NCBI RefSeq assembly: GCF_034313965.1
Contig: NZ_JAVIWQ010000002.1
Location: 3,286,001 to 3,350,000 of the forward strand
DNA: 64,000 nt
Source: Herbaspirillum sp. RTI4
GTDB lineage: Bacteria; Pseudomonadota; Gammaproteobacteria; Burkholderiales; Burkholderiaceae_D
Direction of reading: 5' to 3'
Each line of letters begins with the position of its first letter. The stretch's first letter is position 1. The notes beneath the pieces are model-generated. The model saw only the letters and a list, made by a program, of their open reading frames with translations, had not been told where the DNA came from and made no database searches. This document shows positions 26,279 to 26,595 of the stretch, piece by piece. Both the position numbers and the translations under genes were made by a program.

Positions 26279-26595
26279 TGGTGCCCCCGACACGGATCGA
26301 ACGTGTGACCTATCCCTTCGTACCACTATGGCTTTCGCCACCGAAGCGTTTGTGGTCTGGACTATACCTTGACCATGAACCGCAGTTATCAAGAAACCTG
26401 CGGCCTGTAGGCCGGAGCCGTCTAGTCTCTACACCTTCCCGCCGACATCGTGGCGGGCTTGGCTCGGTATTGCCATCAGCATCCGGTAAGAGATTCTGGA
26501 AGGGTTCACCGACTTTGACTCCATTCACGCGGCGCCTTTCGAGGCCGGTGCCCAAATTTAGGAGGGGATCGCTCTATCCACTGAGCTACGGGGGC
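26279..26595 (-). tRNA. tRNA-Arg(CCU), split by a group I intron
   Basis: Exon 1 is 26560-26595 (36 nt) and exon 2 is 26279-26318 (40 nt); joined they give a 76-nt tRNA. The acceptor stem GCCCCCG/CGGGGGC, D-arm with loop AGTGGATA, anticodon stem ATCCC/GGGAT around loop CTCCTAA, T-arm ACACG-TTCGATC-CGTGT, discriminator A and encoded CCA all fold. The anticodon CCT decodes AGG. The gene is interrupted immediately 3' of the anticodon (after position 36) by 241 nt, so standard tRNA searches that do not allow large introns may miss it. It lies between uup and a cytochrome gene, on the minus strand. Confidence 0.95.
26319..26559 (-). ncRNA. Self-splicing group I intron (IC3-like) in tRNA-Arg(CCU)
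   Basis: A 241-nt insert directly after the anticodon. The exon ends in U36 and the intron ends in G, as group I introns require. The internal guide GGG (intron positions 7-9) pairs with the anticodon CCU to form a 3-bp P1 with a U-G splice-site pair and loop AAAUUU. Conserved core elements are readable: GGCAATACCGAGCCAAGC (P/Q region), GTGTAGAGACTAGACGGC (R, 26417-26434) and GGTATAGTCCAG (S, 26357-26368), where ACTA and TAGT can form P7. From memory of the Azoarcus tRNA-Ile intron, the R element and the GTGGCGAAAG near the 3' end are almost identical. No endonuclease gene is inside. Confidence 0.93.

Follow-up and report, generated by a model that had tools for sequence, protein, structure and literature searches.

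A group I intron in the anticodon loop of the tRNA-Arg(CCU) gene of Herbaspirillum, probably ancestral in the genus and mostly inherited vertically

A tRNA gene that reads as such only once a stretch has been removed from its anticodon loop raises the questions of whether the gene is functional, what interrupts it, and whether the interruption is passed on by descent or by transfer. The gene considered here lies in the window, a stretch of 64,000 nucleotides of Herbaspirillum sp. RTI4 that was analysed as a whole. The original prediction held that two halves would join into a 76-nt tRNA-Arg(CCU) on removal of a 241-nt insert after U36, and ARAGORN agrees to the base: with introns allowed, it places a tRNA-Arg(cct) at c[26279,26595] of the 64-kb window with a 241-nt intron after nucleotide 36, and the joined exons that it draws are a standard 76-nt tRNA-Arg(CCU), encoded CCA included (Table 1). 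Without introns the program finds 0 tRNAs in the window, so that the warning that annotation software may miss the gene was apt; tRNAscan-SE, too, can miss intron-interrupted tRNAs of this kind, as stated in the available part of PMC8450103. As a chance control, 40 dinucleotide-shuffled windows yielded 6 intron-tolerant ARAGORN hits (0.15 per window). Such a hit is therefore no proof by itself, and proof must come from the intron core.

Table 1. Parts of the interrupted tRNA-Arg(CCU) gene, in window positions
Feature	Position	Strand	Basis
tRNA-Arg(CCU) 5' exon, 36 nt, 3' end = anticodon CCU (U36)	26560..26595	-	sequence, ARAGORN
tRNA-Arg(CCU) 3' exon, 40 nt, starts AA, encoded CCA at end	26279..26318	-	sequence, ARAGORN
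Group I intron, 241 nt, starts after U36, last base G	26319..26559	-	ARAGORN, RF00028, R2 model
Internal guide GGG, can pair with exon CCU (P1, U.G at 5' splice site)	26551..26553	-	ARAGORN boundaries, sequence
UUU immediately 5' of guide, can pair with first 3' exon bases (P10)	26554..26556	-	predicted pairing
P2 hairpin, GAAA loop 26537-26540	26526..26550	-	sequence
P3 5' strand GGAGUC	26517..26522, 3' strand 26414-26419	-	paired 15/15; two-sided changes in 4/6 pairs
P4 5' strand	26507..26512, 3' strand 26464-26469	-	98.9% of cells paired
P7 5' strand (guanosine-site helix)	26423..26427, 3' strand 26360-26364	-	paired 15/15; two-sided changes in 3/5 pairs
P9 region, GAAA loop 26333-26336, close to 3' splice end	26322..26357	-	sequence

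At the boundaries drawn by ARAGORN the insert has the ends that had been read from the letters: a U precedes its 5' splice site and faces a G of the guide, the guide as a whole faces the anticodon CCU, and the terminal base is a G. The preceding CCU, a TTGGGCA near the 5' end and the terminal G recur in 22/22 listed introns of the genus and its near relatives (again at ARAGORN's own boundaries), whereas the bases ahead of the guide differ in number and identity. A guide-type site was located in 33/33 introns by a script that allowed such sites only, so that this count shows just that each intron offers such a site.

Rfam's group I model RF00028 matches the insert with 28.6 bits (E 2.2e-5 for 551 bases searched), below its gathering score of 50, so that a default Rfam scan lists no match in the 64-kb window. 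The gathering score is a curation threshold and not a structural feature, and 15 of the 25 RF00028 matches in a scan of genomes of the host's family also fall below it. Because of the empty default scan, we used a lower threshold and purpose-built covariance models. One of them, R1, was built from 15 of the 18 cores recovered by a motif search; these include the window's own intron (L033), which makes R1 scores for the window circular, and R2 was therefore made from 10 non-Arg introns (of tRNA-Leu, Thr and Ile2). R2 has a single match in the window at E up to 10, a full-length one with 100 bits and an E-value, under a rough calibration, of 1.9e-24. The Infernal check that had been proposed thus returned a sub-threshold match with the Rfam model and a strong one with R2, and the latter, obtained with a model that contains no Arg intron, settles the identity of the insert through its group I core.

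The helices of this core covary. In an alignment of 15 tRNA-intron cores from the host genome and its family, five of them from Arg(CCU) genes, 97.3% of the 520 pair cells are standard pairs, and two-sided changes occur in 21 of the 35 pairs, a level reached by 0/500 shuffles. Sliding the partners by 1-3 columns lowers the pairing to 28-43%, a comparison biased in favour of the real pairing, as the structure itself came from an RNAalifold prediction on these 15 sequences (with P7 added by hand); the two-sided changes are independent of this bias. The Arg rows have GGAG/CUCC as P3, where the Ile2 rows have GGUG/CACC and most Leu rows CCCG/CGGG; P7 also varies on both sides. Given these two-sided changes, the P3/P7 pseudoknotted group I core is real, and the conserved P3-P8 core that contains it is present in the window's intron. 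GAAA loops closing P2 and P9 are expected of the IC3 subgroup. Of the predicted core of IC3-type introns, then, the core itself is borne out, and the IC3 label rests on closeness to other tRNA introns: this is a small anticodon-loop intron with a core like those of Ile2, Leu(UAA) and Thr introns, matched over its full length by R2.

With this anatomy the insert very probably cuts itself out of the tRNA. The pre-tRNA would be transcribed whole, and the guide GGG would dock the exon CCU in P1, leaving a U.G pair at the 5' splice site. P7 is the helix of group I introns that holds the guanosine; a guanosine bound there would attack the 5' splice site, the freed exon U would attack behind the terminal G with the assistance of P10, and ligation of the exons would give the mature tRNA-Arg(CCU). 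The tRNA-Arg(CCU) intron of Bartonella splices both in vivo and in vitro, according to the available part of PMC7717549.

A second intact tRNA-Arg(CCU) gene, beside which the interrupted copy could go unused, would have spoken against the prediction. The Rfam tRNA model RF00005 has 49 matches above its cut-off in the genome, along with three weak ones; all 49 anticodons were read, and no second tRNA-Arg(CCU) is among them, the Arg anticodons found being Arg(CCG), Arg(UCU) and Arg(ACG). From this single copy by inventory it does not follow that splicing is essential, since a tRNA-Arg(UCU) is present and could read AGG through wobble. It could even be imagined that the interrupted gene is a dead, unspliced pseudogene with a decaying intron and that AGG is left to tRNA-Arg(UCU), a reading to which the rarity of AGG (6/224 Arg codons in 8 window genes) would also lend itself. 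Yet the core helices are intact and covarying, exon 1 is the same in 30/30 listed genes of the genus and its near relatives (22 interrupted, 8 uninterrupted), and exon 2 varies among them at two positions only. Decay is not expected to preserve both core helices and exons, which makes a pseudogene very improbable. We hold instead, with a probability of about 0.94, that the intron-split gene encodes a functional tRNA-Arg(CCU), no other having been found in this genome, and carries an IC3-type group I intron after the last anticodon base. A genome's sole detected tRNA-Arg(CCU) gene thus escapes default tRNA or Rfam scans.

The predicted lack of a homing endonuclease also holds, no gene of this kind being evident in the 241 nt of the intron, which therefore does not qualify as an endonuclease-driven mobile intron carrying its gene inside. 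An 81-aa frame on the minus strand (26310-26555) spans the intron and is the only frame of at least 80 aa lying almost wholly inside it on the same strand. Intron lengths in the genus range from 220 to 282 nt, and many of the differences are not multiples of 3, which argues against a conserved reading frame.

How an intron without an endonuclease persists can be asked within the genus itself. Among 34 genomes sampled, 24 have the full gene with an intron and 9 an uninterrupted gene, and the one without a match is 63% complete. The exon junction is exact in every one of the 9 uninterrupted alleles; the allele of G312 differs from the window's gene by few bases (97% and 95% in the halves). The locus is the same almost throughout, with 3 to 8 kb between the tRNA gene and ftsH on one contig in 31/33 genomes and the two on separate contigs in G317 and G322. 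A scan of genome contigs for the exon-plus-guide pattern returned 27 records, of which 17 are from Herbaspirillum, 2 from Xylophilus and one each from Ottowia, Polaromonas, Ramlibacter, Variovorax, Duganella (MAG) and Oxalobacteraceae (MAG), the remainder being 2 MAGs labelled Burkholderiales; 26 of the 27 have the exact core motif between guide and AAGGGAT. Herbaspirillum seropedicae is absent from these 27 records, and in the available part of its genome paper (PMC3093359), where tRNAs were located by tRNAscan-SE, the word 'intron' occurs 0 times. A search of titles and the beginnings of abstracts, which covered few subscription papers, brought up no earlier report of betaproteobacterial Arg(CCU) introns among the matches listed. 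The element is of a known kind, in a bacterial genus for which we found no earlier report.

A host tree of 33 genomes, based on ftsH with flanks of 1.2 kb, has good support at 25 of its 30 inner branches; the branch of the window's genome (G000) is long, and the base composition of 9 rows is unusual. Mapped on this tree, the intron state changes 5 times by parsimony, with at least 4 changes forced by well-supported branches. Changes of this number could be repeated gains, if the intron spread laterally between species by homing or reverse splicing. In keeping with such spread, the intron alignment rejects a topology strictly that of the host (AU p 0.023), and the intron of G246 groups with that of G258 (SH-aLRT 79.3, bootstrap 91) whereas its host sisters, G225 and G174, are without intron. 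Against it, the tree of 24 introns has 9/21 splits in common with the host tree, where 2000 relabellings average 0.22 and never exceed 3; no split of the intron tree with a bootstrap of 95 conflicts with the host tree; and no endonuclease gene is evident. Lateral spread as the general explanation seems unlikely on this balance. As for reverse splicing followed by reverse transcription, movement by that route is described as being without direct experimental support in the available part of PMC3984707.

The comparison of intron and host trees, which had been proposed as informative about descent versus transfer, thus points to mostly vertical inheritance within Herbaspirillum: the intron is probably ancestral in the genus and was lost precisely and repeatedly, and we infer the direction of change to be loss rather than gain. 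As the AU test speaks against a strictly host-like intron tree, there may have been some transfer or recombination, or an error in the alignment. With one locus in one genus, 24 interrupted and 9 uninterrupted alleles and a well-supported host tree, this is a compact test case for how endonuclease-less introns persist, and the locus is useful mainly as such a clean comparative system.

Related introns occur in other tRNA genes. Group I tRNA introns are known from cyanobacteria and from alpha- and betaproteobacteria (available part of PMC4033280). In our surveys R1 had a match in 41/398 Pseudomonadota genomes (E 1e-3) and in 56/392 genomes of the host's family (E 1e-6), the latter against 25 matches with RF00028 (E 0.01) across 392 genomes of that family; surveys of more than 40 genomes were run with stricter filters, by which weak matches are lost. 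A splice-site script, which considered only sites after T and before G in a 7-base loop with U33, labelled 105 distinct introns; as it mislabelled several, 17 labels were set by hand from the sequences and ARAGORN calls. The hosts after this correction are Leu(UAA), Arg(CCU), Ile2(CAU) at two positions, Leu(CAA), Thr(UGU), Ser(UGA) and Arg(UCU), always with the insertion in the anticodon loop, and in most introns the guide fits the exon (CUU with GAG, CCU with GGG, CAU with GUG); the script detected no guide in 8 introns that follow U33 of Ile2. Such a range of hosts (Leu, Ile2, Thr, Ser and two Arg tRNAs) turns the old question of movement between tRNAs into a testable one.

Several members of this family are observations in their own right. 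The host genome has a second group I intron, of 254 nt, in tRNA-Leu(UAA) (L081:2095-2435; C2, 3050094-3050434), and no other UAA tRNA is in the inventory of 49 matches. A phage integrase gene (PF00589) starts 113 bases downstream of this interrupted gene, with a lysozyme-like gene (Glyco_hydro_108) beyond, so that the 3' end of the tRNA looks like a prophage attachment site. In tRNA-Leu(CAA), introns L102, L111, L167 and L174 are inserted after C34, so that the pair at the 5' splice site is C-G where U.G is usual; a GAG guide, as in Leu(UAA) introns, would suit both tRNAs. Exact uninterrupted GGACTCAAAATCC is absent in 4 of the 5 genomes searched, and G348 (the source of L190) has one elsewhere. 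The tRNA-Ile2(CAU) genes of the host's family carry at least 3 kinds of group I intron, two of them after U36, with insertion after U33 as well (L083-L085, L088, L096). Proteobacterial group I introns also occur in tRNA-Thr(UGU) (L095, L196), tRNA-Ser(UGA) (L189) and tRNA-Arg(UCU) (L112, L182), and G785 has them in three tRNA genes, Leu(CAA), Leu(UAA) and Ile2(CAU) (L174, L176, L179).

For the family trees, 10 of the 105 introns were left out of the alignment (L083-L085, L089, L092, L150, L155, L184, L193, L195) and 5 that the script had left unlabelled were added, giving 100, of which 95 rows remained after dropping four near-copies and L182; a reduced tree dropped 23 further rows (long branches and the Ile2 after-33 type). 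We considered whether insertion position is better kept than host tRNA, the changes numbering 6 and 12; each count is 4 above its minimum, and we therefore make no claim as to the better-kept trait.

In the core tree the 28 betaproteobacterial Arg(CCU) introns make up one clade (99/99) adjoining the Ile2 introns inserted after position 36 (90/80), and those of alphaproteobacteria a group of 10 (91/87) within a larger group (96/92) that also holds alphaproteobacterial Leu, Thr and Ile2 after-33 introns. One further alphaproteobacterial tRNA-Arg(CCU) intron, L180 (314 nt), groups with the Ile2 after-U33 introns and is possibly a separate arrival. That the alpha- and betaproteobacterial introns are nevertheless one lineage, which acquired the site once and was then spread or inherited, would account for their sharing the tRNA, the site and the guide GGG, and AU tests do not reject a single Arg(CCU) clade (p 0.172, 0.181 and 0.136). 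However, 0% of 200 bootstrap trees unite the two (in two analyses including the outlier L180 and a third without it), the best tree that does so is 16 to 25 log units worse, and the core tree places the betaproteobacterial introns with the Ile2 after-36 type and the alphaproteobacterial ones elsewhere. When P9 columns are added (core-plus-tail trees, with 8 tails missing), the betaproteobacterial Arg clade is not kept, the AU p for holding it being 0.295 and 0.316. We regard a single lineage as possible, if doubtful, and two origins as the better guess. Our tentative proposal is that introns reached position 36/37 of tRNA-Arg(CCU) on two or more occasions, one lineage giving rise to the alphaproteobacterial introns and an Ile2(CAU)-type lineage to the betaproteobacterial ones. 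Ile2 and Arg share the insertion point and the start of the 3' exon, so that replacing a single base of the guide (GUG to GGG) would suffice for the latter. If two such entries did take place, endonuclease-less introns would hop among proteobacterial anticodon loops by small guide changes, and a common position would be no proof of common descent.

Introns of this kind had been said to be known from both tRNA-Arg(CCU) and tRNA-Ile(CAU) of some proteobacteria. This is right for both, with the proviso that the Arg(CCU) cases in the available part of PMC7717549 belong to an intron family termed alphaproteobacterial; for Ile2, introns in Acidovorax and Burkholderia are reported in the available part of PMC8450103. 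The closest systems by host are the alphaproteobacterial Arg(CCU) introns (such as BbgpI of Bartonella), which interrupt the same tRNA and, in the ones sampled, are inserted after U36 with a guide GGG; the window's intron is from another bacterial class, and the two form separate groups in free trees. Paquin et al. reportedly worked on these alphaproteobacterial introns in 1999. The nearest group in the core tree is instead that of the tRNA-Ile2(CAU) introns of Azoarcus type (L088, L090-L092 and L130, which we take to match the Azoarcus intron), with insertion after U36, a 3' exon starting AA and a similar core; they differ in length (205-212 nt) and in their guide, GUG for CAU as against GGG for CCU. 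Proteobacterial tRNA-Leu(UAA) introns, including the second one of the host genome, share the core and have a similar 3' end, but are inserted after U34 and have the guide GAG; group I introns of tRNA-Leu(UAA) are also known from cyanobacteria and plastids.
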